Assembly: GCF_024359525.1 (NCBI RefSeq)
Contig: NZ_JAKZEU010000001.1
Span: forward strand, 310,001-374,000
Length of the DNA: 64,000 nt
Direction: 5' to 3'
Source: Paracoccus albicereus
GTDB taxonomy: Bacteria > Pseudomonadota > Alphaproteobacteria > Rhodobacterales > Rhodobacteraceae
This document shows positions 37,150 through 52,841 of the stretch, in pieces. Numbering within the stretch: the first letter of the stretch is position 1; every line of letters begins with the position of its first letter. The notes beneath the pieces are model-generated. The model had not been told where the DNA came from, ran no database searches, and saw nothing but the letters and a program-made list of their open reading frames with translations. A program made the position numbers and the translations under genes.

Positions 37150-37557
37150 TCAGGGGCGCGTCGCTATGTTCAGGGTCCAGTCTTTGGCGGTGCCGGTATC
37201 GATCTCGACGAAGCGCGCGTCCAGATAGCCGCGCAGCAGGCAATTCGCGTTGCCCTCGATCCGGAAGCGCTTGGGGGCCACGCAGAGCGGCACCGAACCC
37301 GACAGCGCCTCCTTGCCGAAAACGTCGGTTGCGAAGACATAGAGGTAGCGCGCCGGCAGATCTCCGCGGATCAGGGTTGCGCATTGGTTCGGCGCGACGC
37401 GCCACCAACCTTCGGACCGAAAATCATCGTCATGGGGCTGGCCAAGCGCGATGTTGAGGACGTCGAAACTCTGATTGCATAGCCTGAACTCGGCACGCGC
37501 GGCCGGCGCGGCGAGGGCTATCGCGAAACCAAATGTCGCAAGACTCAGGCAACGCAT
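37150..37557 (-). CDS. DUF1036 family exported protein
   Basis: 135 aa from ATG 37557; an in-frame upstream extension to 37635 is rejected because it precedes the signal peptide MRCLSLATFGFAIALAAPAARA. The mature start EFRLCNQSFDVLNIALG, WWRVAPNQCATL and CVAPKRFRIEGNANCLLRGY match the DUF1036 pattern of small periplasmic proteins with conserved Cys. Function is unknown. A GC-rich hairpin (37143-37148 with 37154-37159) overlaps its stop codon. It is divergent from the ExbB operon across 156 bp. Confidence 0.72.
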   Translation of the reverse strand: MRCLSLATFGFAIALAAPAARAEFRLCNQSFDVLNIALGQPHDDDFRSEGWWRVAPNQCATLIRGDLPARYLYVFATDVFGKEALSGSVPLCVAPKRFRIEGNANCLLRGYLDARFVEIDTGTAKDWTLNIATRP

Positions 37558-37713: not shown

Positions 37714-38202
37714 GTGGCTGTTCTCGCTCGCTGCAAGCTCGCCGCCCTGACGTTTCTGCTCGCCACCGCGCCTGCGATGGCTCAGGTCGAGGCGCCTGCT
37801 GACGATGGGTCCGGCGATGCGGCGGCGACACAAGATGCGGGTCGGATCGTGCTGGAACTGAACGGCGCGACCGACACCGACGCGGGTGCCTGCCGGATGA
37901 CCTTCGTGGCGACCAATGACAGCGGCGAGGCGTTCGAGCGAACCGCCTGGCAGGTGGGCGTCTTCGATGGCGAGGGGATCGTGCGTTCGATCCTGGTCCT
38001 TGAATTCGGGGCGCTGAGCGACGGCAAGACCAAGATCGTGCTGTTCGATCTGCCCGGCAGCGGCTGCGCCGACATCTCGCGCGTCGTCGTGAACGATGTC
38101 GCCCAGTGCCAGCCCGAAGGCGCGGCCGAAACCGAGCTTGCCGACACCTGCCTCGATGCGCTCTCGACGCGCTCGCGCACCGAACTCGACTTCGGCATCT
38201 GA
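37714..38202 (+). CDS. Secreted/periplasmic protein of unknown function, first gene of the ExbB operon
   Basis: 162 aa from GTG 37714, 7 nt after GAGAGG; an upstream in-frame ATG at 37627 has no good site. Residues 1-24 form a signal peptide ending PAMAQ. The mature part has a beta-rich look (IVLELNGATDTDAGACRMTFVATNDSGEAF, VFDGEGIVRSILVLEFGAL) and four Cys that could form disulfides. I do not recognise the family. It is followed after 5 bp by exbB, so it probably serves the same envelope machine, perhaps as the periplasmic partner. Confidence 0.7.
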   Translation: MAVLARCKLAALTFLLATAPAMAQVEAPADDGSGDAAATQDAGRIVLELNGATDTDAGACRMTFVATNDSGEAFERTAWQVGVFDGEGIVRSILVLEFGALSDGKTKIVLFDLPGSGCADISRVVVNDVAQCQPEGAAETELADTCLDALSTRSRTELDFGI

Positions 38203-38207
38203 ACCCG

Positions 38208-38852
38208 ATGCAGTTCGAGTTTCTGTCCGGCCTTTCCGCGTCGACCTATGTCGTGTTCGCCGCGCTTGTCGCGCTGTCGATCGTTTCGGTCACGGTCACG
38301 ATCTTCAAGGTGATGCAGTTCTCGCGCATGGGCGTCGGTCATGCGCAGCCCGCCGAGGCTGTGCTGGATGACTGGCTGCAGGGCCGTCCGGACGAGGCGA
38401 TGCGCCGGGCCTCGTCAAACGACTCCGTCCTGACCCGGGTACTGGGCGCCGTCATGGCGGGGCTGCGCGCCCGTCCCGGCGACCCGGCCTATGCCGAAGA
38501 ACTGGGCCGCCAGTCGGCTCTGGTAGAACTGGCTGCGCTGAACGGACGCATGAGGTTGCTGGAATCCGTCGTTCAGGCCGCGCCGCTTCTGGGATTGCTG
38601 GGCACGGTGATCGGGATGATCGACGCCTTCTCTGCCCTGTCGGTCGCTGAAACCGCTGTCGATCCGGCGCAGCTTGCCGGTGGGATCTGGACCGCGCTGA
38701 CCACGACGGCGATGGGCCTCGCCATCGCGCTGGTCACATATTTCATCAGCAACTGGCTGGAATCGCGGATCGAGGCCGAGCATCAAGGGATCGAGATGGC
38801 GATCTCGGCTGCGATCCACGGGCGCGTCACCGGCACCGGCCAGCGGCGCTGA
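38208..38852 (+). CDS. exbB: ExbB/TolQ-family proton-channel subunit
   Basis: 214 aa from ATG 38208. The first transmembrane helix lies near residues 11-35 (TYVVFAALVALSIVSVTVTIF), and the conserved pair of helices is AAPLLGLLGTVIGMIDAF and WTALTTTAMGLAIALVTYFI, with the Thr residues used in proton flow in ExbB/TolQ. It would form the pentamer around an ExbD dimer in the inner membrane. It is embedded in a five-gene operon with two ExbD genes. Motility (MotA) is excluded by length and the ExbD partners. Confidence 0.92.
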   Translation: MQFEFLSGLSASTYVVFAALVALSIVSVTVTIFKVMQFSRMGVGHAQPAEAVLDDWLQGRPDEAMRRASSNDSVLTRVLGAVMAGLRARPGDPAYAEELGRQSALVELAALNGRMRLLESVVQAAPLLGLLGTVIGMIDAFSALSVAETAVDPAQLAGGIWTALTTTAMGLAIALVTYFISNWLESRIEAEHQGIEMAISAAIHGRVTGTGQRR

Positions 38853-38854
38853 TC

Positions 38855-39319
38855 ATGGCCGGCGTCGCGATCCACCGGATCGAGCTGCCGCGCCGCGCCC
38901 GTGGCCGCACCTTCACTCTGACCGCGCTGGCCGATGCGATGTTTCAGCTGCTGATCTTCTTCATGCTGTCGTCGAACCTGACGCCCTATTCGCTGATGCC
39001 GTTGCGCAGCGGCGCGCTGGCGGCCGATGCCAGTGGCGGGGATGACGCGGACGGCGAGGCGTCCCGGACGGATGTCGTGTCCGCGCAGGACACCGCGATC
39101 TGGTCGGTCAGCCGCGATTCCATCGTGTCGAGCGGACAGCGCTTTGGGTTCGACCGTCTGGGTGACCTTGCCGCCGCGATGCAGGCGGGCGGCACCGAAC
39201 GGGTTCTGCTGGTGACGCGACCCGGCGCGCAGGTTCAGGGCATGGTCGCGGTGCTTGAAGCTGTAGCCGCCCATGGGATCACCGACGTTCAGGTCGCAAG
39301 CGGCGGGACGGGTTCATGA
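38855..39319 (+). CDS. exbD: ExbD/TolR-family protein with conserved Asp
   Basis: 154 aa. A short basic cytoplasmic tail is followed by one helix, LTALADAMFQLLIFFMLSS, carrying D27 at the position of the proton-carrying Asp of ExbD/TolR. A periplasmic domain of about 100 residues follows, ending with GMVAVLEAVAAHGITDVQVAS, typical of ExbD. It starts 3 bp after exbB and overlaps the second exbD by 4 bp (ATGA). It would be the active partner of the ExbD pair. Confidence 0.92.
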   Translation: MAGVAIHRIELPRRARGRTFTLTALADAMFQLLIFFMLSSNLTPYSLMPLRSGALAADASGGDDADGEASRTDVVSAQDTAIWSVSRDSIVSSGQRFGFDRLGDLAAAMQAGGTERVLLVTRPGAQVQGMVAVLEAVAAHGITDVQVASGGTGS

Positions 39320-39723
39320 GCGTCGTGCTGCCGCGCCGCCGCCGCTCACCTAGGATCGATGTGTCGATCGCGATCGTCAACATCGTCCTGCTGCTGATCT
39401 TCTTCTTTCTGGTCACCGGACAGGTCACTGCAGATGAACGGGTCGAGGGTGTGGCACTGCCCAAAACCAGCGCATTGCCGCTGGACCAGCTGCCGCGCCC
39501 GATCCTGATCGTCGAGTCCGGCGGCGGCCTGCTGCTGAACGGCGAGCCGGTCGCAGCCGACCTGCTTGGCGTGGCGCTGGATGCCTTGCCCCAGCCGGTC
39601 ACGCTGCACCTTTTGATCGACCGCACGGCGCCCGCCGACGGTCTGGTCGCGTTGCTGAACCATCCTGCACTCGACGACAGGGCGGTCAAGCTGGTGACGC
39701 TGCGCGACAGGGCGGCGCGATGA
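39316..39723 (+). CDS. Second ExbD-family protein, Asn in place of the channel Asp
   Basis: 135 aa. Basic tail RRRRSPRIDVS, then helix IAIVNIVLLLIFFFLVTG. Aligned on the LLIFF motif, N22 (codon AAC at 39379) occupies the position of D27 in the first ExbD. The periplasmic part ending DGLVALLNHPALDDRAVKLVTLRD fits ExbD. Loss of the acidic residue should stop proton carriage by this chain, so it may form an asymmetric dimer with the first ExbD. An alternative Asp (D15) lies nearer the cytoplasmic end. The alignment was made by eye. Confidence 0.85.
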   Translation: MSVVLPRRRRSPRIDVSIAIVNIVLLLIFFFLVTGQVTADERVEGVALPKTSALPLDQLPRPILIVESGGGLLLNGEPVAADLLGVALDALPQPVTLHLLIDRTAPADGLVALLNHPALDDRAVKLVTLRDRAAR

Positions 39724-40808
39724 TCGGTGGACTGGTCGAACGCCGCAAACACTGGCTTCAGGCTTTGGTCCTGTCGCTGGGGCTGCACGGCGTAGGCGCG
39801 GCGGCGATCCTCGATGTGATCCCGTCGCTGCCGCGGCGCACTGACGAGACCATTTCGCTGCAGATCGAGATCGCGCCGCTGGACGTCACCACCGGCTCGG
39901 TCGGGGCGGCGACGCTGACGCCTGCGCAACCGGTCCCGACCGCCGAGGGAGAGGCGGTGATGCCAGAGCAAGCGGTACCGGCAGGTGCAGACGCGGTGAC
40001 GCCGACACAGACCGATATCCTCAGCCCGGCAGAGGATCTTCGTTCCGTGATCGCCCCGACGCCGGTGGCACCGCAGTCTAACGCGACCGCCAATCTGCCC
40101 GGCATCGACATCGCGCTTGCACCCACGACACAATCGCGCGCCAACGGCGCGGAGGGCAGCGGCGCAGATGCGGCAGCGTTGGATGCGGGTCTCGCCGCGC
40201 TGATCGGCTCGATCCGGCAGCAGGTGGCCGAGCCATGCCTGATCGCCTTGCCCCGCAACGTGGAGGATGGAGGTCTGCGTGTCACGCTGCTGGGCGAGGA
40301 TGAGGCGCGCTTCGCGCCGCTGATCGAGGCGGTTGATCCGCCGCAGGGCGTTGCACTCAGCCAGCAGCCGCTTCTCGTGGATGCCCGCCAGTGCCCGGCG
40401 GTGAACTTCGCGCGTGCCTATCGAAGCTATCCGGTTTTTCCGCTGCGCATCGCACTCGACACCACTACCCTTGCCGCGGGCGAGCCCCTGACCGGCACGA
40501 TCAGCGGCATTGCGGACGGTGATACGCTGGCGCTGCTGCTGATCGACGACAACGGCGTGGTGCAGGACCTGACCAGATTTTTCACCGCCGGCAGGGGATC
40601 GGCAACCGCCTTCGACGTGCCCGCGCGGCGGGCCGGCGATCCGCGCGAGACCGCGCAGTTGCTGATCGCCCTGACCAGTCCCGTGCCGATCGAGACGGTT
40701 TCACTGCGAGACGGACAGCTAGCCGAGGACGTCTTCGCAGCACTGTCGGCCGAGATCGGCGATCCTGCCGCGATCAAGATCGGCCTCGCCAGTTTCGACC
40801 TGCGCTGA
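39720..40808 (+). CDS. TonB-like anchored protein with unfamiliar C-terminal domain
   Basis: 362 aa. One N-terminal helix, LQALVLSLGLHGVGAAAIL, contains S19-x-x-x-H23, the SxxxH pattern by which TonB engages ExbB-ExbD. A Pro/Ala/Thr-rich linker covers about 45-150. The C-terminal 200 residues (LIGSIRQQVAEPCLIALPR, YRSYPVFPLRIALD, DTLALLLIDDNGVVQDLTRFF) do not look like a TonB or TolA C-terminus; faint similarity to DUF4384-type domains is possible. It ends the ExbB operon, and its stop is 3 bp from that of clpV. A role as a force transducer is inferred from the helix and the operon. Confidence 0.7.
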   Translation: MIGGLVERRKHWLQALVLSLGLHGVGAAAILDVIPSLPRRTDETISLQIEIAPLDVTTGSVGAATLTPAQPVPTAEGEAVMPEQAVPAGADAVTPTQTDILSPAEDLRSVIAPTPVAPQSNATANLPGIDIALAPTTQSRANGAEGSGADAAALDAGLAALIGSIRQQVAEPCLIALPRNVEDGGLRVTLLGEDEARFAPLIEAVDPPQGVALSQQPLLVDARQCPAVNFARAYRSYPVFPLRIALDTTTLAAGEPLTGTISGIADGDTLALLLIDDNGVVQDLTRFFTAGRGSATAFDVPARRAGDPRETAQLLIALTSPVPIETVSLRDGQLAEDVFAALSAEIGDPAAIKIGLASFDLR

Positions 40809-40811
40809 ATC

Positions 40812-43442
40812 TCAGGCGAAGTCGTAGGCGAAGCGGCCGTCCTCGACCCGAATCGTCACGTCCGACATTCCGCGCGACTCGACCATCCGCGACAGAACCT
40901 GCCGCGACAGGTCGGGCAGGATCGAATTGGTGATGATGTTGTCGATCATCCGTCCACCGCTGTCGGGATCGCGACACTGTGCGACGATATGCTCGATCAC
41001 GGCATCATCCCAACCCAACCGAGCGCCATGCGCCTCGCGCAGTCGGCGCACGATGGCGCCCAGTTTCAGCCGCGCGATGCCAGCCAGCACCTCGGACCCA
41101 AGCGGGAAATAGGGGATCGTCACGATCCGGCCCAGAAGCGCGGGGGGAAACACCTTCAGCAACTCGGGCTTCAGGGCCGCATCCAGCGTCTCAGGATCGG
41201 GTGCGGTGTCGCTTCCCTCTGCCATCCGCATGATCACGTCGGTCCCGACATTCGAGGTCAGCAGGATGAGCGTGTTCTTGAAGTCGATCGCACGGCCGTT
41301 GCCATCCTCCATCATGCCCTTGTCGAAGACCTGGAAGAACAGTTCGTGGACGTCGGGATGCGCCTTCTCGATCTCGTCAAGCAACACCACGGAATAGGGT
41401 TTGCGCCGCACCGCTTCGGTCAATCGCCCACCCTCGCCATAGCCGACATAGCCCGGCGGCGCGCCTTTCAGCAGGCTGACCGAATGCGCTTCCTGAAACT
41501 CGGACATGTTGATGGTGATGACGCTCTGCTCGCCACCGTAAAGCTGTTCGGCCAGGGCCAGCGCGGTTTCCGTCTTGCCGACGCCCGAGGGGCCGACGAG
41601 CATGAAGACACCGATGGGCTTGGCCGGGTTAGAAAGACCCGCGCGGCTGGTCTCCACCCGCCGTGCGATCATCTGCAATCCATGATCCTGCCCGATCACC
41701 CGTTCGCGCAGATGGTCGGCAAGGCCAAGGATCGCCTGCAATTCGTCAGCGACCATTCGCCCGGCGGGGATACCGGTCCAATCGCTGATGACGGTTGCGA
41801 CGGCCTGTTCGTCGACATGGGACCGGACCATCCGGTCGTCGGGGTTCCTCGCATCCAGGGCAGCCGCGGCTTCAGCCATCGCGGCGCGGATCGCACCGAC
41901 GTCGTCGTGCCCTTCGGCCAGCTTGGCGCGAAGCGCCACGATCCGATCCACCGTCTCTTTTTCCTCGGCATACATCGCCTCGAACGCGGCCAGCCTCTCG
42001 CGCAGCGTTTCGGCCTCGGCACGCGCGTCTGCCAGACGATCCTCGTCCGTCTCGCCCAGATCGCGCGCAGCTTCCTTGGCTGCGATCTCGGCTTCAAGCG
42101 AAGCGATGTCTTCGCGCAAATCGGCGATGCGTGCCGGCGTGGAGGACATGCCGACCGCGACACGGGCGCAGGCCGTGTCCAGAAGAGAGACCGCCTTGTC
42201 CGGCAATTGTCGCGCCGGCAGATAGCGCGCAGACAGCTTGACCGCCGCCACGATCGCAGCGTCGGAAATGCGGACGCCGTGATGTTCCTCCATCGGGCGC
42301 AGGATGCCCCGGATCATGTGACAACACTGGTCGATCCCAGGCTCGGCGATCTGAATCGGCTGGAAGCGCCGGGTCAGCGCGGGATCCTTTTCGAAATAGG
42401 TCCGGTATTCGGCCCAGGTCGTCGCGCCGATCGTCCGCAGCGTGCCGCGCGCCAGCGCCGGCTTCATCAGGTTGGCGGCATCGCCCGTCCCCTGCGCACC
42501 GCCGGCGCCGACCAGCGTATGCGCCTCGTCGATGAACAGGATGATCGGGGTCGGGCTGGCCTGGACCTCATCGATCAGCGATTTCAGCCGCTGCTCGAAC
42601 TCGCCGCGCATGCTGGCGCCGGCCTGCATCGCCTGGATGTCGAGCATGTGCAGCCGTGTCCCCTTCAGCGCGGGCGGTACGTCGCCCGTTGCAAGACGCT
42701 GGGCAAAGCCTTCGACAATGGCTGTCTTGCCCACCCCTGCCTCACCGGTCAGGATCGGGTTGTTCTGCCGCCGCCGCATCAGCACGTCGATGATCTGGCG
42801 GATCTCGTCCTCGCGTCCGACGACCCGATCCATCTTGCCGGATTGCGCCTCGGCGGTCATGTCGGTCGAGAACCGGCCCAGCGCCGTCGTCGCGCCTTCA
42901 CCTTGTGCCGCCCCCGGCGTCCCCGCGCCCAGCAGCCCCGATCCGTCCATCGGGCGCATCGTCTCTTCTTCGCTGTCGGCCCACAAAGTCCGGCTGTCCT
43001 GGCCCAACCGGTCGGGGCCGATTTCGGCGAGGGTCGGCGAGGCGAGCGTCATCTCGCGCCGCAGGTTCGCATCGTTCAGTAAAGCCGTTAGCGCATGGCC
43101 CGTCCGGATCTGCGCTTCGCCGAAGAACAGTGTCGCGTAGGTCCAGGCGTGATTCAGCGTGGCCCCGAGACTGGCAGAGATCCCGGGCGTCTCGGTCACG
43201 CCCTTCTTCAGGCTCCCCATCGCCCGGTCGAGATCCTTCAGCACCTGCCCGCGATCCAGCGACAATGCGGCAAGCGTCACCGAGATATCGGAATTGCGGT
43301 TCGACACCGCATGGAAGAGCCAGTGGCAGATTTCGACATGACGATTCCCCTCGCCCCGCGCGTGCCGCATCGCCTGGATGAAGGCGTCGTAGCCCGCGCG
43401 GTTCATCTTGCCGGCAAAGGTTTCGATCGTGATCTCGGTCAT
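40812..43442 (-). CDS. clpV: Type VI secretion ATPase ClpV (TssH)
   Basis: 876 aa from ATG 43442, which overlaps the tssG stop (ATGA); a longer frame upstream is an out-of-family extension. A Clp N-domain spans residues 1-150, first AAA module with GEAGVGKTAIVEG and FIDEAHTL, a middle coiled coil with regions rich in Glu/Ala/Arg, then a second AAA module with GPSGVGKTETALALAEQLYGGE and LLDEIEKAHPDV. The C-terminus lacks the ClpB disaggregase end. ClpV disassembles contracted TssB/TssC sheaths for reuse. It is the last gene of the T6SS operon. Confidence 0.95.
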   Translation of the reverse strand: MTEITIETFAGKMNRAGYDAFIQAMRHARGEGNRHVEICHWLFHAVSNRNSDISVTLAALSLDRGQVLKDLDRAMGSLKKGVTETPGISASLGATLNHAWTYATLFFGEAQIRTGHALTALLNDANLRREMTLASPTLAEIGPDRLGQDSRTLWADSEEETMRPMDGSGLLGAGTPGAAQGEGATTALGRFSTDMTAEAQSGKMDRVVGREDEIRQIIDVLMRRRQNNPILTGEAGVGKTAIVEGFAQRLATGDVPPALKGTRLHMLDIQAMQAGASMRGEFEQRLKSLIDEVQASPTPIILFIDEAHTLVGAGGAQGTGDAANLMKPALARGTLRTIGATTWAEYRTYFEKDPALTRRFQPIQIAEPGIDQCCHMIRGILRPMEEHHGVRISDAAIVAAVKLSARYLPARQLPDKAVSLLDTACARVAVGMSSTPARIADLREDIASLEAEIAAKEAARDLGETDEDRLADARAEAETLRERLAAFEAMYAEEKETVDRIVALRAKLAEGHDDVGAIRAAMAEAAAALDARNPDDRMVRSHVDEQAVATVISDWTGIPAGRMVADELQAILGLADHLRERVIGQDHGLQMIARRVETSRAGLSNPAKPIGVFMLVGPSGVGKTETALALAEQLYGGEQSVITINMSEFQEAHSVSLLKGAPPGYVGYGEGGRLTEAVRRKPYSVVLLDEIEKAHPDVHELFFQVFDKGMMEDGNGRAIDFKNTLILLTSNVGTDVIMRMAEGSDTAPDPETLDAALKPELLKVFPPALLGRIVTIPYFPLGSEVLAGIARLKLGAIVRRLREAHGARLGWDDAVIEHIVAQCRDPDSGGRMIDNIITNSILPDLSRQVLSRMVESRGMSDVTIRVEDGRFAYDFA

Positions 43443-44407
43443 GCGGCCTCTTGCGTCGGAAGATATTCGGGATCGAGCGCGAAGCGAGCCGCCTCGACCA
43501 TCGTATCGGGGTCGAGATCGGAGGCAGGTGCTAGGGCGGCCATCCAGCCAAGCCGTCCGGCCTGCCCCAGGCTGGTCTGACCGATCTCGGTCGCGGGCAG
43601 CGACAGGGCCACCTCGACCACCATCGAACGTCCGAGGTACCAGAAAACGATGTCCGCCAGGCGTTGATAGCCAGGCTGGCCGGGCAGGTAGCGTCCGTAT
43701 TCCTCCAGCGAGCGGGCCGACAGATGCAGCGCGATCTTGTCGTTCACTGACTGCACCCGGGCGCCCAGATACATGTCGCGGCCCAGCGAGCAGCCCTGCT
43801 GGCCGAGCGTGCTGGTATCGCCGGGCTCGAACTCCATCCACAGCGGCACATGTTCCTCGACCGAAACGGCGATCTGAAGATGCGTCTCGATCATCTGGCG
43901 CAGCCGAACGGGGCAGCGGACGCGGCCCCCGAACAGTGAAACCATCGGCAGACGCGCGATGTCGGGAAGACCGTCATGGTCACGGAAGGCAGGCGTGCCG
44001 ACGCCCGCGACCGCCGCGACATAGCGGTTGAAGCGATCCTCGGTCGGATGATCGTATTGCGTGATCGCGTGGCTGTCGGACCACGCCCTGAAGAACAACT
44101 GCAGAAAGCGAGTCGCCAGCAGGTCGGTGAAGGCCACGAAGCTGTCGTCGCCGCCTTCAAGCCAGCGCGCGACCTCTTCAGTCGTGTTCAGCGGAAGCGG
44201 CCCCTGCGGCCCGAAAAGACCCAGGACCTGCGCGCGCAGCGCATCGGCGCGAGGCGGCGCGAAGTCGCCCGCCGGAAAGGCAAGCGACGGGTCCTGCCCG
44301 ATCCGCACCGTTTCATCCGATAGCCGCCGGTTGCGTCCGATCGGCGGTTTGTCGGGCGCGGCGCGTTCCAGATCGCGCAGCAGGGAGAGGAAGCCCTGCC
44401 CGCTCAC
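43439..44407 (-). CDS. tssG: Type VI secretion baseplate subunit TssG
   Basis: 322 aa. Recognisable TssG features are the N-terminal FLSLLRDLERAAPDKPPIGRNRR, EVARWLEGGDD, LFFRAWSDSHAI and PVRLRQMIETHLQIAVSVEEHVPLWMEF. TssG builds the baseplate wedge with TssE, TssF and TssK. Its start overlaps the tssF stop and its stop overlaps clpV, so all three are translationally coupled. TssK, normally in the same wedge, is not encoded in the window. Confidence 0.93.
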   Translation of the reverse strand: MSGQGFLSLLRDLERAAPDKPPIGRNRRLSDETVRIGQDPSLAFPAGDFAPPRADALRAQVLGLFGPQGPLPLNTTEEVARWLEGGDDSFVAFTDLLATRFLQLFFRAWSDSHAITQYDHPTEDRFNRYVAAVAGVGTPAFRDHDGLPDIARLPMVSLFGGRVRCPVRLRQMIETHLQIAVSVEEHVPLWMEFEPGDTSTLGQQGCSLGRDMYLGARVQSVNDKIALHLSARSLEEYGRYLPGQPGYQRLADIVFWYLGRSMVVEVALSLPATEIGQTSLGQAGRLGWMAALAPASDLDPDTMVEAARFALDPEYLPTQEAA

Positions 44408-46317
44408 AACAGCGCTCCCGACCCGGTGCGCGGCGGCCAGCGCATGACCTCACCCCGTTGCTGGCTGATCGTCACCGACCGCGTGAAACTGTTCACGCTG
44501 GCATATTCAGCGAAGAAACGGTCCAGAACGGCGGCGAGCAGGATCATCCCGCTGCCCTCGAATGCGGTCTCATCGAAGGTCACGGCGATTTCCAGGCCGC
44601 GGGCCGGAAAATAGCCGTCGGCGCGGCGGATCGAGCGGACGACGGGCCGGGTCTTCAGTTCGATGATGCCCTGAATCTGCGTTTCGGTGATCGTGTCCGA
44701 CAAATCCGCGAACAGGCTCAGCAATTCGCGCAGCGCGGCCGCGCCATCCCGACCAGGACGATCGTCCAGCCCGAAATGGTTCAGCGACAGGTAGGAGATC
44801 AGGCGCCAATAGACGTCGCCCTGCACGGCGCGATGTGGCGCGGCGCGGTCGATGTCCAGCATCGACTCGCGCGGCGGCGTGGGTCCAGCGACACAGGCCA
44901 GCGCCACGGTCGTGTCGCGCGCCAGATGGAAATCATCGGTGCCACCCGCGATCGGCAGGTATTCAGGCAGGTGGCGATTGGAACAGAGCGTCCGGATCTG
45001 CAGCCGCTGCGCGCGAATGCCGCCGTCCTCTGCCGGTGGTTCATAAAGCGCGACGTAGGTTTCGGTGCCGCGATAGCGGTGACGCAACCCGAAGCGACGT
45101 TCCTGCGGGGTCAGCCGCCGCGGCTTGCGCCGGGCTGTGTAGTACAGCGCCTGGCGCGGCGCGGTCTGACCGTCGGGCAGCGCGTAGAGGGGGCGGACAG
45201 GGACTTTCCCCGCACCGCTGTCGTAATGCGCGAAGACGCCAGTGATCCGTTGAACCTCGTAATGGGTCAGCGGGCTGGAATCTGGTGTGACGACGAATTC
45301 ATGGCGCTTCGGGTCAAGCCTGATCTGGCTTGCCGTTTCCTCGAACAGGTTGATGGCGGGGGCGCAGTTCAGCCGCGCGTGACCGCGCCCGACGCGAGCA
45401 GCCAGCCGTTCATCGCTGCGCCGGAATTCCAGCACCAGGTCGCATTCCTGCGCAGTGATCCGCGTCATCAGCGGGCCGAGACCGGTCAGCCGCAGACCCA
45501 GATACTTGCGCGGAAAGACGAACGCCTCGCGCAGTTCCGCGAAACCGTCGAACAGCCGCGTGTCGCGCGAGAACAGCCGTTCGTCACGGCCAAAGCCGAT
45601 CTGTTCGATCTGGTCGGGTGCCAGTCGCAGAAAGACGGGATCGCCGTTCTGGTCCAGCCAGCGAAGGCTAGCCCGCAATCGGTCGCAGTGGATCTGTTCG
45701 TAAAGCGGCACCGCATGGGCCATGTCGCCAGTCAAGTGGATGATCAGGCTGTCGGGTCGCAGATCGGCCAAAGTCCCCTTGGTGGTTCGCGCGATCGCAA
45801 TCTGCAGGCCGGCCTTGGTCGCGGGATCGGGGTCCTGCCCCAGGGCGCCCAGCGGGCCGGGTCCGGCAAGATAGGTGATGTCGCCGATCGCCAGCGGCCG
45901 CAGCGTCAGCGAGGCCGCCAGTGCAAAGCGACAGGCGACGCGTCCGTCCGTGTCCGAGAAACGCGCGTCGAGATAATCACCCGCCGCGAATTCGCGCGGC
46001 TCGTCCGTGTCGCGACCTTCGGCGGGGGGTTGCGCCTGGACAAGCATCACGGATGGCGTCGGCGCCAGGGCGTCCGGGAAGATCTGTTCCAGCAGTTCGG
46101 TGGTGAAGGTGCGGAATTCCTCGTCCAGCTTCAGCTGCACACGCGCGGCAAGGAAAGCCGTCCCTTCCAGCAGACCTGCAACCGCGGGATCCGTGTTGTC
46201 ACGCAGCAGGCCGCCCAAACGGTCGGCGATGCCCGGATATTCGGCTGCAAATTCGGCCGATCGTTCGTAAAGCAGCGCAAGTTCGCGGTTGTAGGCGTCG
46301 CGAAAGGCCTTCTTCAT
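44404..46317 (-). CDS. tssF: Type VI secretion baseplate subunit TssF
   Basis: 637 aa. The N-terminus FRDAYNRELALLYERSAEFAAEYPGIADRLGG is the classic TssF opening, followed by DPAVAGLLEGTAFLAARVQLKLDEEFRTFTTELLEQIFP. The C-terminal FAEYASVNSFTRSVTISQQRGEVMRWPPR is equally characteristic. It forms the baseplate wedge with TssG and resembles phage T4 gp6. It starts 10 bp after tssE and overlaps tssG by 4 bp. Confidence 0.96.
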   Translation of the reverse strand: MKKAFRDAYNRELALLYERSAEFAAEYPGIADRLGGLLRDNTDPAVAGLLEGTAFLAARVQLKLDEEFRTFTTELLEQIFPDALAPTPSVMLVQAQPPAEGRDTDEPREFAAGDYLDARFSDTDGRVACRFALAASLTLRPLAIGDITYLAGPGPLGALGQDPDPATKAGLQIAIARTTKGTLADLRPDSLIIHLTGDMAHAVPLYEQIHCDRLRASLRWLDQNGDPVFLRLAPDQIEQIGFGRDERLFSRDTRLFDGFAELREAFVFPRKYLGLRLTGLGPLMTRITAQECDLVLEFRRSDERLAARVGRGHARLNCAPAINLFEETASQIRLDPKRHEFVVTPDSSPLTHYEVQRITGVFAHYDSGAGKVPVRPLYALPDGQTAPRQALYYTARRKPRRLTPQERRFGLRHRYRGTETYVALYEPPAEDGGIRAQRLQIRTLCSNRHLPEYLPIAGGTDDFHLARDTTVALACVAGPTPPRESMLDIDRAAPHRAVQGDVYWRLISYLSLNHFGLDDRPGRDGAAALRELLSLFADLSDTITETQIQGIIELKTRPVVRSIRRADGYFPARGLEIAVTFDETAFEGSGMILLAAVLDRFFAEYASVNSFTRSVTISQQRGEVMRWPPRTGSGALL

Positions 46318-46327
46318 CGTTCCGCCC

Positions 46328-46903
46328 TCACCGGACGGACTCGGCGGGCAACATGCGCAGCTTGCCCGCGCCCATGTCCACCTCTGCCACGAAGTCCATC
46401 GGGATGTCGGCAGGTGAGGCGATCATCTCGGCCACGATGTCGAAGAATAGGCGCTGATCGGACTGACTGCTGCGGTCAGTCGCGCGCACCTCGATCGTCC
46501 GGGGATTGAGCCTCGTTTCGTGACGGATCAGCGTTTCGCGGATCGCCTCCGCGATGCGCCGTGCGGTCTCGTTGCTGCGCGTCAGGCTGGACAGGTCACG
46601 GAAGCCGTAATTGATCACCGACCGCTCGACATAGGGCGCATCGCCAAGGTCGATCGCGGCGTCGAGCCGCACGGTGTTCAGAAGACTCGCGATGTCCAGC
46701 GCAAGATCGCGGCGAAGGCTTGCCTCATCACTGCCCTCTCGGCTGGCGCGACGGCGGGCCGAGATCATCCGCGCATCACCCTGGCGCTGGCTTGCGGGCG
46801 CGGCGTCGCGCGCATCGCCCGCCGCAGCAGCGGCGCGGAAGATCTGCAGAACCGACATGCGGCGATCCCGGATCAGGCGGTCACTTGGATCAGTGGAGGG
46901 CAT
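46328..46903 (-). CDS. tssE: Type VI secretion baseplate subunit TssE (gp25-like)
   Basis: 191 aa. The gp25/lysozyme-like core starts near residue 65: LRRDLALDIASLLNTVRLDAAIDLGDAPYVERSVINYGFRDL, and continues through IAEAIRETLIRHETRLNPRTIEV. The N-terminal 60 residues are polar and longer than usual. TssE helps start sheath polymerisation. It lies 84 bp downstream of hcp and 10 bp before tssF. Confidence 0.93.
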   Translation of the reverse strand: MPSTDPSDRLIRDRRMSVLQIFRAAAAAGDARDAAPASQRQGDARMISARRRASREGSDEASLRRDLALDIASLLNTVRLDAAIDLGDAPYVERSVINYGFRDLSSLTRSNETARRIAEAIRETLIRHETRLNPRTIEVRATDRSSQSDQRLFFDIVAEMIASPADIPMDFVAEVDMGAGKLRMLPAESVR

Positions 46904-46987
46904 GAGCGCTGATGGTGCAAAGGCCCCGGCGCGGGTTCAGCGCCGCGCCGGGGCCATGACATGCGGAACCGCAAGGATCCCGACGGA

Positions 46988-47485
46988 TCAGGCGTTCCAT
47001 TCCTTGTTCTCGGCGATGTCCCAACCGGCCATCGTTTCGGCACCCGCCGCGCCGGACTCCTCCTGCAGCGTGTAGACGACTTCGAACTTGCGGAAGTTCA
47101 GCGTCAGAGTTTCCTGGATCCGGTCCAGACCATCCTTCTGACCACCGGTATTGTAGCTGGTGATCATGATGTTCTGCAGCTTGATGCGGAAATACTCGAC
47201 CGGCGCCCCGCCGCCCGATTTCCGCACGATCAGTTCGCCGTTCTCGATATGCTCACCCGAGGTGCAACGCTTGATCAGATCGTTCGAGGCGAGATCGACG
47301 TATTTCGTCAGCGTGATATCGGAGACGTTCACTTTCCCGCCGCCGCCGCCTTTGCCCAGGTGGGTCGTGCCGGACTGGGTCAGACCCCAGGACCAGGCAA
47401 GCACGTCGATATTGTCGCGGTGACGATCATCTTGGGACTCGCCCTTGATGTTGTTGGAAAGCTTCAGAAAGATATCAACAGCCAT
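46988..47485 (-). CDS. hcp: Type VI secretion tube protein Hcp (TssD)
   Basis: 165 aa. MAVDIFLKLSNNIKGES, IDVLAWSWGLTQSG, SDITLTKYVDLASNDLIKRC and NIMITSYNTGGQKDGLDRIQETLTLNF are the standard Hcp motifs. Hcp hexamers stack to make the inner tube and are secreted. It is preceded by a strong AGGAGA site and by a hairpin in the tssC-hcp gap, fitting the high, separate expression typical of Hcp. No effector gene follows it. Confidence 0.97.
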   Translation of the reverse strand: MAVDIFLKLSNNIKGESQDDRHRDNIDVLAWSWGLTQSGTTHLGKGGGGGKVNVSDITLTKYVDLASNDLIKRCTSGEHIENGELIVRKSGGGAPVEYFRIKLQNIMITSYNTGGQKDGLDRIQETLTLNFRKFEVVYTLQEESGAAGAETMAGWDIAENKEWNA

Positions 47486-47529
47486 AGCGATTTCTCCTGT
47501 GTCTTCAGCTGTGCGTCAATTCCGTGCAG

Positions 47530-47548
47530 CCGTCGCGACGTGCGACGG
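47530..47548 (-). repeat. Hairpin in the tssC-hcp intergenic gap
   Basis: Bases 47530-47536 (CCGTCGC) pair with 47542-47548 (GCGACGG) around a 5-base loop, 45 bp upstream of the hcp start. On the transcribed strand no T-run follows, so it is not a full terminator. It may be a processing or stability element that lets hcp accumulate above its operon neighbours. Confidence 0.5.
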
Positions 47549-47559
47549 TTGCCTTTTCG

Positions 47560-49050
47560 TCAATTGCCCTTCGGCAGCTTGGACACGAGGCTCATCCCGA
47601 TATCCATTCCCTCAAGCTGGAAATGCGGCTTCAGATAGAACTTGCCGACATAGTAGCCCGGATTTTCCTCGTCCTCGACGACCTCGACCTTGGCGCCCGC
47701 CAGCGGTTTCTTGGCCTTTTCGCGCTCGCTCGCGCTTTCGGGATTGCCCGAGACATACTTGTTCACCCAGGTCTGCAGCTGTGTCTGCAGTTGCAGACGA
47801 TCGGGGTTCTGGCCGATCTTGTCGCGAACCATAACCTTCAGGTAGTGACTGAAGCGTGACACGGCGAAGATGTAGGGCAGACGCGACGACATGTTGTCGG
47901 AAGCTGTCGCCATGTCATCCGTGTACTTCTTCGGACGATACAGCGTCTGCGCGCCGATGAAGGCAGCCTTGTCGGTATGCTTGCGGTGGATCAGCCCGAT
48001 CAGGCCCGCTTTCGACAATTCGCCTTCACGCCGATCGGTGATCGACACTTCGGTCGGGCATTTCAGGTCTTTCGAGCCGTCGCCCGTGTCGAAAGCGTGG
48101 GTCGGCAGATTCAGAACCTCGCCGCCTGACTGAACGCCGCGGATCTGGACCGTCCAGCCGTATTCCTTGTGCGCGCGGTTGATGTTCACCGCCATCGCAT
48201 GGGCCGCGTTCATCCAGGCGTATTGCCGGCCGTCATGACCATCGGTCTCTTCCTCAAAATCGAATTCCGGGACGACCGAATTGCTGTTCTGGCCATAGGG
48301 TTCGCGCGACAGGACGCGCGGCAGGGTCAGCGCGATGTAGCGGCTGTCCTCGCTGTCGCGAAGGCTGTTCCACGCAGCGTAATCCGGCGTGTCGAAGATT
48401 TCCGACAGATCGGGCGGGGTGCCGATCTCGTTCCAGCTGTCCATGCCCAGAAGTTCGGGCGCGGCCGAGCTGATGAACGGCGCGTGAGCCGCTGCAGCGA
48501 CCTTGCCGATCGCTCGCAACAATCCGACATCGGCGGTCGACTGATCGAAATAGTAGTCGCCGATGATCGCACCGAAGGGCTTGCCGCCCAGCGTACCGAA
48601 TTCCTGTTCGTAGATCTTCAGGTGCAGCGGCGACTTGTCCCATTTCGCCCCCGGATAGCGACGCATCATCGCCGCCAGTTCCTGTTTCGAGGCGTTGAGC
48701 ACCTTGACCCGAAGGCTGGCATCGGTTTCCGAATTGTTGACCGTGTAAGCAAGACCGCGCCACGAAGCTTCCAGTTTCTGGAATTCCTCGTCATGCATGA
48801 TCGCGTTCAATTGGTCGGTCAGCTTGCGGTCCATCCGGGCCAGCATCGAGGTGACCGTGTCGATCACATCCTCGCCGATCAGCGACTGGTCGGCCAGCGC
48901 CTCGTCCACCAGCGCCGCGACGGCGTTGTCGACCTCTTTGGCGGCGACTTCCGTGCGCGGCTTGATGGTCTGGCGCAGAATGTCGGAGAATTCGTCGAGT
49001 TCGCCCAGATCGCGGGTCGCGTCGCCCTGACGTTGCGTGTTCTCGGCCAT
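47560..49050 (-). CDS. tssC: Type VI secretion sheath protein TssC
   Basis: 496 aa from ATG 49050, which overlaps the tssB stop by one base (TGATG); a GTG one codon upstream is an alternative. Sheath motifs are FQKLEASWRGLAYTVNNSETD, FGAIIGDYYFD, DVGLLRAIGKVAAAAHAPFISSAAPELLG and the C-terminal GFYLKPHFQLEGMD-like segment. TssC forms the contractile sheath with TssB around Hcp. The C-terminal SLVSKLPKG is typical. Confidence 0.97.
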   Translation of the reverse strand: MAENTQRQGDATRDLGELDEFSDILRQTIKPRTEVAAKEVDNAVAALVDEALADQSLIGEDVIDTVTSMLARMDRKLTDQLNAIMHDEEFQKLEASWRGLAYTVNNSETDASLRVKVLNASKQELAAMMRRYPGAKWDKSPLHLKIYEQEFGTLGGKPFGAIIGDYYFDQSTADVGLLRAIGKVAAAAHAPFISSAAPELLGMDSWNEIGTPPDLSEIFDTPDYAAWNSLRDSEDSRYIALTLPRVLSREPYGQNSNSVVPEFDFEEETDGHDGRQYAWMNAAHAMAVNINRAHKEYGWTVQIRGVQSGGEVLNLPTHAFDTGDGSKDLKCPTEVSITDRREGELSKAGLIGLIHRKHTDKAAFIGAQTLYRPKKYTDDMATASDNMSSRLPYIFAVSRFSHYLKVMVRDKIGQNPDRLQLQTQLQTWVNKYVSGNPESASEREKAKKPLAGAKVEVVEDEENPGYYVGKFYLKPHFQLEGMDIGMSLVSKLPKGN

Positions 49051-49574
49051 CACTCGTCCTCCGCCGTGCTGGACTTCGCCTTTTCACGCTCGGCCAGCGC
49101 GGCCATCAGTTCGGGATCGTTCAGCAATTGCCGGATCTGGTCCTGAGCCTTGGGTTTGCTGCTGAGATAACGCTGGAGATTGGCGAGGTGTTCACGCGCC
49201 TCCAGCAATTTCTTCAGGGCCGGGACCTGGCGCGCGATGGCGGCGGGTTCGAAGTCGGCCATCTTGGTGAATTCCAGCGATACCCCGACACGCTGACCGT
49301 CCTCGCCACCCAGCCGGTTCTCGACGTGGGTCGACAAGGCAGGTGCGATGCTGGCCATGTACTCGTCCAGCGACGCCGCCGTCACATCGACGAAGTCACG
49401 CTCTTCCATCGGCGCCTTATCGACCTTCGAGGCGTTGCCCGACAGGTCCGACAACACACCCATCACGAAGGGCAGTTCGACCATCTTCTCGCTGTCGTAG
49501 GGATCCTCGTACGAGATGTTCACGCGCGGCGGGCGATTTCTCTTGATGAAATCCGTGGCTTTGTCAGCGGCCAT
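49050..49574 (-). CDS. tssB: Type VI secretion sheath protein TssB
   Basis: 174 aa. NRPPRVNISYEDPYDSEKMVELPFVMGVLSDLSGN is the classic TssB start, followed by ERDFVDVTAASLDEYMASIAPAL and the ClpV-binding C-terminal region LLNDPELMAALAE. It is preceded by CAGGAG 7 nt before the start. A 111-bp gap separates it from tssA upstream, so a local promoter is possible, although no clear -35/-10 pair was found. Confidence 0.97.
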   Translation of the reverse strand: MAADKATDFIKRNRPPRVNISYEDPYDSEKMVELPFVMGVLSDLSGNASKVDKAPMEERDFVDVTAASLDEYMASIAPALSTHVENRLGGEDGQRVGVSLEFTKMADFEPAAIARQVPALKKLLEAREHLANLQRYLSSKPKAQDQIRQLLNDPELMAALAEREKAKSSTAEDE

Positions 49575-49685: not shown

Positions 49686-51011
49686 TCATTCCGAGGTGGG
49701 TCGCGGAATAAGCTCGGCCACGATGGCCTGAAAACCCTTGTCCATCAAGCCGCGGGCGCGCGCCAACAGGATCGGGATCGGGCTTGCTGGTTCGACACGC
49801 TGGTAGAAGCTTTCGACGCCCAGCAGGATCGCGGCAAGCTGGCTGCGATCTGTCGGTTGCGACAGAGGGGCCGAGACATCCTCGACCGGCGGCTCCTCGA
49901 AACCACCCTCGACCGATTGCGACAGCGCGCGCAGACGATCCATCGGCAGCGAGAATCCGGTCTCGCGACCAAAGCTAATCACGGCCCGCCCCGCTTCGCC
50001 CGGCATCAGCACCTCCAGCGCCTCGATCAGCGGACGCCCGACCAAGAGGCGGGCTTGCGTGACCAGAAGAAGTGCGGGTGATGACGGTTCATTGCGGGCC
50101 AGCCAGCGTTCGGCGGCGGTCAGGGCCGCGCGGACGGCCGCGCGGTCGGCGATCGAGACCGCAGGCAGGGCCCCTGCTCCGGTTGCTGACGTTGCTGGTT
50201 CCGGCTGATCCTGATCCGTTTCGATCGCAGCAGGCTGCGACACGGTTGCCCGGGACAGGTCTGGCTGCGCCTTGGCGATCAGATCCAGCATCGCGGCAAG
50301 CGTGACCTGTGTATCCTGAAACGCGGGACGGATCCGTCCGCCTTCCTCGCTGCCCGACAATTGCGCGATGTCGGCCAGCGCGTCGGCCGCCTGTGACAAA
50401 GCCGCATGGGTCCGCTCGATCGAAGCGCGATGGGCGGCACCGGACAGCGCCGACAGGACAGCGTCCCGGTCCGGCACCTCTTCGCCCGCTCGTGGCTGCG
50501 CCTGACCCTGCGCGATCATCATCCGGCGCCACGTCGCGTCGGCGCGACCGTTCAGCGCAAGGTGCTGCAGCGGCATGATGATGGCGGTCACCGACCCGAG
50601 CGCATCCAGCGCAGCGCGCCGATCGGACAGGGCCGAGGCAGGTGTCGGATGAACCGACGCACCGTGCGCTCGCATCAGCGCCGCAACGACAACCAACGTA
50701 TCGGCAAAATCGGCCGGTCGAGCGGCGAGGATCTGGAACCGAGCGAGCAGGGACAGCAACCGCAGGTCGCGCGAACGACGCAGAAGCGCGGTGATTGCCT
50801 GCGTCTCGGCCGACAGATTGATCGATTTCGGATCGAAGACACGGTCGATACTGCCCTCGACCCCTGCCATGCCGGGGATGACGTAGCGCTCGGGCAGCCG
50901 CGCCTCTGCCTCATAGTAATAGTCGGCGAAGGCCGGATCATCGTTGGCCGCAAGATCGGGCCCGCAGGGGGGCGCGTCGGGCAGAGGGTCGAGGATCCAG
51001 TCGAGAGTCAT
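49686..51011 (-). CDS. tssA: Type VI secretion cap/assembly protein TssA
   Basis: 441 aa from ATG 51011, 10 bp after tagH; the frame continues upstream to 51326 but only with Arg/Cys-rich antisense-like sequence. The N-terminal ImpA_N domain is evident in WILDPLPDAPPCGPDLAANDDPAFADYYYEAEARLPER and SRDLRLLSLLARFQILAARPADFADTLVVVAALM. The C-terminus (RVEPASPIPILLARARGLMDKGFQAIVAELIPR) is typical of the shorter TssA class. TssA coordinates baseplate and sheath assembly. Confidence 0.92.
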   Translation of the reverse strand: MTLDWILDPLPDAPPCGPDLAANDDPAFADYYYEAEARLPERYVIPGMAGVEGSIDRVFDPKSINLSAETQAITALLRRSRDLRLLSLLARFQILAARPADFADTLVVVAALMRAHGASVHPTPASALSDRRAALDALGSVTAIIMPLQHLALNGRADATWRRMMIAQGQAQPRAGEEVPDRDAVLSALSGAAHRASIERTHAALSQAADALADIAQLSGSEEGGRIRPAFQDTQVTLAAMLDLIAKAQPDLSRATVSQPAAIETDQDQPEPATSATGAGALPAVSIADRAAVRAALTAAERWLARNEPSSPALLLVTQARLLVGRPLIEALEVLMPGEAGRAVISFGRETGFSLPMDRLRALSQSVEGGFEEPPVEDVSAPLSQPTDRSQLAAILLGVESFYQRVEPASPIPILLARARGLMDKGFQAIVAELIPRPTSE

Positions 51012-51021
51012 GCCCGCTCCG

Positions 51022-52224
51022 CTATCTGCCGCCACGGCTGGCGCCCGGGTCGCCGCGACCCTCGACATCGCGGTAGACAGCCGCGAAATGATCGAGGAAT
51101 TCATCCAGCATTCCATTGTCGTGCCGCGCCGCCTTGGCGTCCCATCGTTCCACGAACAACTCCCACGCCTTGGCCTTGCGGTTGCCGCCAAGACGGCGGG
51201 TGTCCGCATCGGCCTCGATCCCTTCCGGGCTGAGGTCGGACAGCAATGCACCCAAAGCCGGCTGCAGCGCCGCGAACAATGCCGCCTGATGCAGGCGCAG
51301 GTCGCGCAGGGCCTCATCCAGCCCATCCGGCGCAGTCATGAAGCCGTCGCGCGGCTTCAGGAACAGCGCCTCGACCGCCTGCGCCGGGTCGGGGAGGAAC
51401 TTCAGCGGGTTGTTGTCGGTGGCCGCGCGCATGGTCCGTTCGCCCGTGCGCGCGAATTGCTTGGCGGCGGCGCGATCCTGCAGCGCCATCATGATCTGCT
51501 GCACGACGGAATGCATCGTCCGGCCCAACGCGGTCGCCAGCGCGCTTGCATCGACATCCCCGTACAGTTCCGGCGGCAGGCCGACCCCCTTGCAGAAAGC
51601 GCGGACGAAATCGGCATCGGGCGTGGGCTGGGACGGTGGCTTGACCCCTGTCGTCTCACGCGCAGACGAACCTGCCTGTGGCGCTGGCTGGACCGCGGCG
51701 GGCGACGGCCTTGGTGCACCGGTCGGAATGAAATCGCTGGCGAAATCATCCATCGGGCGCAGCGGCCGGGCGGGCAGCGGCTCCACCGGTTCGAACCCGC
51801 CGCCGATCGCCCAAGGGTCGTCATCCACGCGCGGCGCATGAGAGCGGTCGGGCAACGAGTCACTGCTGATCCGATGTGCTTCCCCGTCTCCACCGGAAGC
51901 CGCGCCTCCTTGACCAAACAGGGCTACGATCAGGTATTGCCCGACCTGAAAGCGATCGCCGTCCTGCAGGGGGTGCGGGCCGTCCATCCTATAGCGCTGA
52001 CCCTGCAGAAACGTCCCGTTGGTCGAGACGTCGCGCAACCACCATCCGCGAGCGTCGTGATAGACATCGAAATGATGGCCCGAAATGTGGCGGCTTGCAT
52101 CGGGAAGCACCCAATCCATCGCCCGCGAGCGTCCGCCAGACAGTCCGCTTTGCGGCACCACGATCCGCGATGGACCGCCATCGTCCATCGTCTGGTGGTT
52201 TTCGATCTGCAGGACAAGCGACAT
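51022..52224 (-). CDS. tagH: T6SS-associated FHA-domain protein TagH
   Basis: 400 aa from ATG 52224; a TTG at 52242 overlapping the upstream stop is possible. An FHA domain spans about 1-95: RIVVPQSGLSGGRS, ASRHISGHHFDVYHDARGWWLRDVSTNGTFLQGQ, with the conserved R, S-x-x-H and N-G residues that bind phosphothreonine. A Pro-rich linker follows, then the TagH C-terminal domain (FLKPRDGFMTAPDGLDEALRDLRLHQAALFAALQPALGALL). TagH proteins act in post-translational control of T6SS firing, usually with PpkA and PppA, whose genes are absent here. Confidence 0.9.
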   Translation of the reverse strand: MSLVLQIENHQTMDDGGPSRIVVPQSGLSGGRSRAMDWVLPDASRHISGHHFDVYHDARGWWLRDVSTNGTFLQGQRYRMDGPHPLQDGDRFQVGQYLIVALFGQGGAASGGDGEAHRISSDSLPDRSHAPRVDDDPWAIGGGFEPVEPLPARPLRPMDDFASDFIPTGAPRPSPAAVQPAPQAGSSARETTGVKPPSQPTPDADFVRAFCKGVGLPPELYGDVDASALATALGRTMHSVVQQIMMALQDRAAAKQFARTGERTMRAATDNNPLKFLPDPAQAVEALFLKPRDGFMTAPDGLDEALRDLRLHQAALFAALQPALGALLSDLSPEGIEADADTRRLGGNRKAKAWELFVERWDAKAARHDNGMLDEFLDHFAAVYRDVEGRGDPGASRGGR

Positions 52225-52238
52225 GGGCTGACGGGATC

Positions 52239-52841
52239 TCAATAGACGCGGAACAGGGATTCGGCCATGTCGATGAACCGTGCCAGATAGACCGAACGGG
52301 CGCGCAGATCGGACCGGGCGAGACAGGACAGCACGGCGCTGTTGACCGAGCGCGGCGCGCGGTGCAGCGCCGCAGGCATCGGATCATTCGGCGCCACCGG
52401 CCCGCCCGACCAGGCGACGGCCAGCCCCAGCAGGACCGAGGGTGACCGCGACGGCGCCCACAATGCCTCTAGCGCGATCCGCTGGCGCATCGCGGTCGAT
52501 GGATGGTCCAGCCAGGCCGCGATCAATTCCATCATCGGCCGCTCCATCGGGTCGAGATGCTCGGCCATCAGGCGTAGACACTCGTATCCCCAGCGAACAG
52601 CCATCTGCGGCAAGGCGGCGAAAGCGGTATAGGTCACGGCCTCTTCCGGCGTGGTCGAGGATCGGAGGCGACCCAGAAACGCCAGCGCATCTTCGCCCGG
52701 ACGCGGGCGTTGCTGGGTCAGTTCGGCGATCTGCGGAAGATTGAGAAACAGTTCCTGCGGCGCGTCGTAGCGCAGCGACCCCATCGGCGGCCGGGTCTTT
52801 TCGGCATCGGACCGCGCGGGCGGCAGGCTGTTGTCGTTCAT
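52239..52841 (-). CDS. DUF6931-like protein, first gene of the T6SS operon
   Basis: 200 aa, soluble, mainly helical. RPRPGEDALAFLGRLRSSTTPEEAVTYTAFAALPQMAVRWGYECLR and the C-terminal helices match, as far as I recall, the T6SS-associated DUF6931 group. No catalytic motif is visible. Its stop lies just before the tagH start (and overlaps a possible TTG), so it is co-expressed with tagH. It is divergent from the lipid kinase across 164 bp. The role is unknown; gene position suggests regulation or assembly. Confidence 0.65.
   Translation of the reverse strand: MNDNSLPPARSDAEKTRPPMGSLRYDAPQELFLNLPQIAELTQQRPRPGEDALAFLGRLRSSTTPEEAVTYTAFAALPQMAVRWGYECLRLMAEHLDPMERPMMELIAAWLDHPSTAMRQRIALEALWAPSRSPSVLLGLAVAWSGGPVAPNDPMPAALHRAPRSVNSAVLSCLARSDLRARSVYLARFIDMAESLFRVY

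Follow-up and report, generated by a model that had tools for sequence, protein, structure and literature searches.

A type VI secretion-linked ExbB-ExbD-ExbD operon of Rhodobacteraceae with a TonB-like transducer that appears to carry the periplasmic domain of the kinase PpkA

What does an ExbB-ExbD-ExbD operon serve when it ends in a TonB-like protein and no TonB-dependent receptor stands near it? The question is raised by positions 37714-40808 of the window, by which we mean the whole 64,000-nucleotide stretch of Paracoccus albicereus DNA analyzed here (G000:C1:310001-374000, from a genome of 3.66 Mb). By open reading frame (ORF) coordinates, five + strand genes follow one another in the order op1-ExbB-ExbD1-ExbD2-transducer, with spacings down the operon of 5 bp, 2 bp, a 4-bp overlap, and a further 4-bp overlap. 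A sequence-only reading of this DNA had described the same five-gene unit, had noted that no receptor, TolB, or Pal lay nearby, and had suggested that the operon was perhaps linked to the type VI secretion system (T6SS) that it faces. The operon and its coordinates were confirmed, and the link to the T6SS turned out to be the main fact about it. A TonB-dependent receptor, TolB, and Pal were all lacking among the 40 window ORFs scanned against Pfam (part of the ORFs in the window, one of the 40 being antisense to hcp).

The first gene, op1 (37714..38202, +, GTG start), encodes a small secreted protein of 162 aa with a signal peptide judged by eye. It gave no Pfam or NCBIfam match near any cut-off; AlphaFold2 predicted a beta sandwich (pLDDT 85.5) with four invariant Cys residues, and the closest solved fold was that of IrmA (5ek5; Z 10.7, rmsd 3.2, 109 residues aligned). 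ExbB (38208..38852, +) is a proton channel subunit of the MotA/TolQ/ExbB type (PF01618 E 5e-27; 94.6 bits against a cut-off of 22.9). ExbD1 (38855..39319, +) possesses a transmembrane Asp27 (PF02472 E 6e-10; 39.7 bits against 25.4), and ExbD2 (39316..39723, +) has Asn22 in place of the transmembrane Asp (PF02472 E 8.9e-7; 29.5 bits against 25.4), so that ExbB and both ExbDs lie above the Pfam cut-offs for the energizer families. The last gene (39720..40808, +) encodes the TonB-like transducer of 362 aa, comprising an SxxxH helix, a Pro/Ala-rich linker, and a novel C-terminal domain (~40140-40805).

A scan of GTDB contigs yielded 72 loci, 71 of which had Rhodobacterales names in their titles and one of which was from a Rhizobiaceae metagenome-assembled genome (MAG). 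All five genes were present in the same order and on the same strand at 65 of the 72, and the 4-nt overlap between ExbD2 and the transducer, taking as start the ATG nearest the ExbD2 end, was retained in 57 of these 65 complete operons; this degree of conservation indicates that the operon is more than a chance arrangement. The loci not counted as full operons were L112, L130, and L150 (op1 not detected), L136, L152, and L176 (incomplete), and L174 (a kinase match). Core tss genes were located within 10 kb at 56/72 loci, and tss, kinase, or phosphatase genes within 10 kb at 60/72. TssC was encoded elsewhere in 11 of the remaining 12 genomes, and in the twelfth (L136) the short contig bearing the locus also carried a tagH-like gene.

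The same association was evident within the family, of which 198 genomes were searched. With a single sequence as query, the transducer was found in 13 of them, 11 of which were counted as true; the two set apart were G017 (E 7e-4, two internal stops) and G004 (a murein endopeptidase fusion). A profile search returned the same 11 above 200 bits along with weaker matches in four genomes. TssC was present in all 11 transducer genomes compared to 45/198 overall (hypergeometric P 2.9e-8, a value that treats the family genomes as independent when they are related and hence overstates their independence). A twelfth TssC-positive genome (G159) has an operon whose transducer is cut by the contig end. 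When the domain profile was run against 289 genomes of the class, only two matched, both from the family of the window. Sixteen plasmid records also matched the transducer, from Paracoccus, Sagittula, Thioclava, Rhodovulum, Leisingera, and Tritonibacter. On plasmid p_II of Paracoccus aminovorans BM109 the operon lies between DUF1036 and tssH in an annotated T6SS cluster, with the transducer labelled a hypothetical protein. The gene at the transducer position in Leisingera sp. S132 is annotated as a serine/threonine protein kinase, presumably because of the shared domain described below. No TonB-dependent receptor, TolB, or Pal was annotated in the two plasmid loci L210 and L211, and in the loci that were read the neighbors were T6SS genes with no iron-uptake receptors, which does not fit an operon always found beside such receptors. 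Taken together, the gene order and neighborhood make it very likely that the operon belongs to the T6SS, as had been surmised. A run of type III secretion genes (L211:30247-36558) follows ~12 kb beyond the T6SS-Exb cluster on the plasmid of Leisingera sp. S132.

The transducer combines a TonB-like front with a non-TonB rear. The window protein has the sequence SLGLH in an anchor helix at approximately residues 11-35, matching SxxxH, the anchor-helix motif of TonB. SxxxH was found within the first 45 residues of 51/65 homologues, ten more had the His only, and the four with neither all had displaced called starts (by 32 to 395 nt). Neither TonB_C nor TonB_2 was detected by Pfam at E 0.5 in any of 56 homologous C-termini, and a control hhalign comparison of the transducer with four TonB-type proteins from related operons gave a probability of 0.2%; the sequence-only reading, which had paired a TonB-type anchor with a non-TonB C-terminus, was borne out on both counts. 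The window transducer matched nothing in Pfam or NCBIfam at E 1, and a sequence search of the PDB with its domain returned nothing significant. AlphaFold2 modeled residues 141-362 (222 residues) with a pLDDT of 92.8 and a pTM of 0.88. In the predicted fold, a helix-strand-strand-helix-strand-helix unit leads into a beta sandwich; two Cys residues of the domain are invariant. Comparison of this model using Foldseek and VIA-align retrieved chiefly Ig-like sandwiches aligned over residues 99-222 (best 4kh9; Z 8.6, rmsd 3.4, 102 aligned), a result that says little about function. The N-terminal sub-domain (helix-strand-strand-helix-strand) has what we take to be a BON-like look, from its element order only.

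The informative match came from the neighboring kinase. When 56 transducers (55 of 65, plus the window) were compared by hhalign to 30 of 48 kinase C-termini, the alignment extended over 200 columns with a probability of 99.6% and E 2.7e-24. Judged from these profiles, the transducer C-terminal domain is a homologue of the domain that PpkA, the T6SS kinase, exposes to the periplasm at its C-terminus, behind a membrane helix. The op1 alignment was built in the same way from 45 of 63 sequences plus the window. Of the 44 complete operons that had a kinase in reach, 39 had the kinase gene convergent and within 1.5 kb of the transducer end, and the two such neighbors that were scanned contained Pkinase PF00069. 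Frequent neighbors of the kinase were PP2C (48/72 loci), TssM (43/72), and TssL (40/72). In the threonine phosphorylation pathway (TPP), the kinase and PP2C are PpkA and PppA, and TssM/TssL belong to the membrane complex. The linkage of the operon to a T6SS with its PpkA, PppA, and Fha is that expected of a TPP input module. A murein endopeptidase (PF03411) fused to the same C-terminal domain is encoded at L029:8085-9992 (G004), a genome whose TssJ-type T6SS is sister to the clade that carries the window's operon.

The arrangement recurs in a second T6SS lineage of Rhodobacteraceae, in which a divergent op1-ExbB-ExbD-ExbD-transducer operon (type 2; e.g., L099 and L100) takes the place of the operon seen in the window (type 1). 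A type-2 profile matched 22 of the 198 genomes; all 22 were inspected and 20 possessed the operon, which was split over contig ends in G062 and G087. All 20 were TssC-positive and none had the type-1 operon, and type-1 genomes gave no type-2 profile matches. In the fetched type-2 stretches, tss genes were present in 16/20 and tss or kinase genes in 18/20. The type-2 transducers that were scanned ended in DUF4384 (10/10) and BON_like (6/10) domains, and the same domains were found, more weakly, at kinase C-termini (2/8 and 1/8, respectively). Profile comparison of the type-2 transducer with its own kinase, using eight of nine kinase stretches (L198 left out), gave 96.6% and E 6.4e-10. The four cross pairs of type-1 and type-2 profiles gave 0.3, 1.4, 0.06, and 0.7%, and a further comparison with two rows only was equally without result; no sequence link between the two domains was found. 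Because each transducer matches its own kinase and not the other, each motor seems to carry the domain of its own kinase. Consistent with this pairing, a survey that scored 14 candidates per genome found type-1 kinase matches in 9/11 type-1 genomes (the other two being 71 and 73% complete) and in 0/20 type-2 genomes, the kinase being confirmed by Pfam in three and by phmmer in six. In the TssC tree, ten genomes formed a type-1 clade with support of 1.0: eight with the operon, G159 with its cut copy, and G121 with op1 only. Three genomes (G026, G175, and G056) have TssC of the type-2 clade, yet possess the type-1 operon and kinase, and this mismatch suggests that kinase and motor were exchanged together. 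A conserved protein of ~550 aa is encoded beside type-2 op1 (L099:10372-12039 and L100:8116-9741); the copy that was scanned had no Pfam match.

The two ExbDs of the type-1 motor differ at the position that carries the proton. The transmembrane Asp of ExbD1 was conserved in 69 of 70 rows including the window, the other row being a gap; the corresponding ExbD2 residue was Asn in 68 of 70 rows including the window, Ser in one, and A in one badly aligned row (L110, perhaps a frame break). A passage of PMC11658791 calls ExbD(D25N) inactive. If both ExbDs pair in one ExbB ring, just a single helix of the pair would be able to carry a proton. Asn in ExbD2 was considered as a peculiarity of the T6SS module and was ruled out, since it occurs in 7/7 sister operons (L096-L098, L101-L104) and all 20 type-2 operons have Asp in both ExbDs. 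These sister operons have the order op1-ExbB-ExbD1-ExbD2-TonB, and in the two that were scanned the last gene encodes a genuine TonB (PF03544, PF13103). They adjoin genes that partly resemble, by eye, TonB-dependent receptors and hemin ABC transporters.

These features lead us to favor, as rather probable from the gene arrangement and domain sharing, the view that the operon feeds the PpkA-PppA-Fha pathway as an input module powered by protons. The ExbB ring and the ExbD1/ExbD2 pair would form an inner-membrane motor that is driven by the proton motive force and dedicated to the T6SS. This motor may move the TonB-like transducer or switch its conformation, and the transducer would display in the periplasm the domain that PpkA itself possesses. 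There it might pair with PpkA or compete with it for one envelope ligand; we infer both the direct contact with the kinase and the sign of the effect. The state of the motor would then govern kinase dimerization, Fha phosphorylation, and assembly of the secretion apparatus, and the timing or site of T6SS assembly is probably set in part by the motor. The module would thereby take the place of TagQRST in Pseudomonas or RtkS in Serratia.

Besides the relatedness of the genomes counted, several observations weigh against this interpretation. A complete type-1 transducer is missing from 34 of the 45 T6SS-positive genomes, and in G122 and G197 the type-2 profile match is to the kinase only, with no type-2 transducer. 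G121 and G315 retain op1 and the kinase without these exb genes, and the Rhizobiaceae locus (L174) consists of kinase and op1 with no exb gene within it. These three cases limit what can be claimed for the motor, as it can be absent from a kinase-bearing T6SS and is not indispensable. The persistence of op1 with the kinase in the same three cases, where exb was not found, makes op1 a candidate envelope ligand. The presence of op1 in the sister TonB operons as well means that it is not specific to the T6SS.

Other roles for the operon have to be set against kinase input. The module could replace TssJ, with op1 and the proton motive force-driven transducer bridging TssM/TssL to the outer membrane or helping to push the membrane complex through the envelope; the kinase-like domain would then provide a docking site. 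TssJ (PF12790) was found in 11 of the 45 T6SS-positive genomes, in 0/11 with the type-1 operon and in 1/20 with type 2; Fisher's test of TssJ against Exb over the 45 genomes, related genomes being counted singly, gave P 3.1e-6 (table 1/30/10/4), or 9e-7 when G159 was counted (1/31/10/3). A crude lipobox scan revealed no convincing lipoprotein gene in three clusters (those of the window, elsewhere in its genome, and in P. aminovorans), and according to parts of PMC10564176 the T6SS of Acinetobacter lacks TssJ and is compensated by other envelope proteins. Strict mutual exclusion nevertheless fails, because G031 has both TssJ and Exb. In G121, G131, and G197 a T6SS is present although TssJ and Exb are both missing; the division runs along T6SS clade lines, so that a small number of events may account for it, a TssJ too diverged for the Pfam model could have been missed, and sharing of the kinase domain is not required by this role. 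We regard replacement of TssJ as unlikely, while ranking it ahead of the remaining alternatives. Slightly more doubtful still is a wider proposal that joins it to kinase input: in two lineages of Rhodobacteraceae T6SSs, a built-in, envelope-spanning proton motor would sense or stress the envelope via its kinase-matched domain, trigger assembly through PpkA, and stand in for the missing TssJ, the type-1 motor being a half-stator with one proton-carrying ExbD helix.

It is quite improbable that the motor instead drives local opening of peptidoglycan for the T6SS by activating a neighboring M23/SLT hydrolase. M23/SLT matches were present at 47/72 loci and caspase-like protein matches at 63/72, and the domain is fused to a murein endopeptidase in L029; however, the hydrolase genes in the loci read are outside the operon on the opposite strand, and the domain was observed much more frequently in kinases than in hydrolases, for which there is this one case. 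The caspase-like protein and an M23/SLT peptidase lie upstream of DUF1036 at L020:1866-5653 and in its relatives. An ordinary TonB/Tol-type system for uptake or envelope upkeep, standing beside the T6SS by chance, could be argued from the sister operons, in which the same gene order leads to a true TonB and receptor-like genes. Such an explanation seems very improbable given the C-termini devoid of TonB_C, the T6SS association in every transducer genome and at most loci, and the ExbB tree, which was built with every fourth type-1 locus and separated the type-1 ExbB clade from sister and type-2 ExbBs. Iron uptake and Tol-Pal functions were dropped from consideration on the grounds of the missing TonB domain, the lack of a receptor among the ORFs scanned, and the T6SS neighborhood.

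The surroundings of the operon in the window are as follows. A divergent gene encoding a DUF1036 protein (37150..37557, −, coding from the ATG at 37557; PF06282 E 1.5e-35) precedes op1; it was found at 53/72 loci and lay divergent upstream of op1 in 49 of the 65 complete operons. Downstream, a 3-bp gap separates the operon from the end of the convergent tssH (ClpV; 40812..43442, −; TIGR03345 1192 bits), which is followed on the same strand by tssG (43439-44407, −; PF06996), tssF (44404-46317, −; PF05947), the gp25-like tssE (46328..46903, −; PF04965), and the hcp tube protein gene (46988..47485, −), whose product is 88% identical over 165 aa to the annotated Hcp of P. aminovorans BM109 plasmid p_II. 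A + strand ORF at 46961-47638 was set aside as antisense to hcp. The run continues with tssC (47560-49053, −; TIGR03355), tssB (49050-49574, −; TIGR03358), a tssA-like gene (49686..51326, −; TIGR03363 99 bits, under the curated cut-off of 160.85), and tagH/Fha, the expected PpkA substrate (51022..52242, −; PF20232 and PF00498), and its first gene encodes a DUF6931 protein (52239..52841, −; PF22011 E 4e-37). The kinase in this genome is at ~595 kb of the same contig, ~245 kb from the operon, in a region (~595-611 kb) that also encodes PP2C, TssM, TssL, TssK of the VasE family, and a protein of 1981 aa that matches bactofilin. Giant proteins of ~2000 aa are encoded in or near T6SS clusters at L066:5277-11222, L210:7868-14083, and L028:1-6225, with bactofilin matches in the two that were scanned. 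Far from the operon, window positions 1817-3193 (−) encode a 458-aa protein in which MORN repeats matched strongly (E 1.6e-98).

The T6SS is described as powered by its contracting sheath, with the ATPase ClpV responsible for recycling, and to our knowledge no dedicated proton motor is known in its trigger pathway. ExbB-ExbD motors and PpkA input modules are each already known; their combination, a dedicated proton motor in the T6SS trigger pathway, was not described among the matches listed in the open-licence PMC literature. If true, input by such a motor would provide a defined test of how the state of the envelope reaches PpkA, and, as kinase and transducer domains are matched in each of two lineages, domain swaps could test the coupling directly. 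The natural Asp/Asn pair of ExbDs is, in addition, a ready system for asking whether both protonation sites are required in an ExbD motor of two helices.

Envelope partners that act on PpkA have been described, namely TagR and RtkS in portions of PMC6082577, TssW in those of PMC12607579, and the TagQRST input in those of PMC11881912; the passages on RtkS and TagQRST (PMC6082577, PMC11881912) describe the upstream signal as unknown. The operon resembles TagQRST, RtkS, and TssW as a periplasmic or envelope module within a T6SS cluster that is associated with PP2C, Fha, and a membrane kinase whose periplasmic domain is specific to the lineage, whereas no ABC ATPase or outer membrane lipoprotein was seen in the operon and an ExbB-ExbD motor with a kinase-domain transducer is found instead. 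With TolQ-TolR-TolA it shares the Pfam families of TolQ and TolR, but its ExbB reaches 50 bits with the TolQ model, for which the cut-off is 221, it has two ExbD genes, and TolB and Pal were not among the scanned neighbors. The TonB-ExbB-ExbD sister operons of Rhodobacterales match it in gene order, ExbB/ExbD families, Asn-type ExbD2, and anchor helix; the type-1 operon is set apart by a non-TonB C-terminal domain, the lack of a receptor among its scanned neighbors, and its T6SS surroundings. The type-2 operon shares with it the op1-ExbB-ExbD-ExbD-transducer order, the link to a T6SS, and a transducer domain common to its own kinase; it is distinguished by DUF4384/BON_like C-termini that are not detectably homologous to the type-1 domain and by Asp in both ExbDs.

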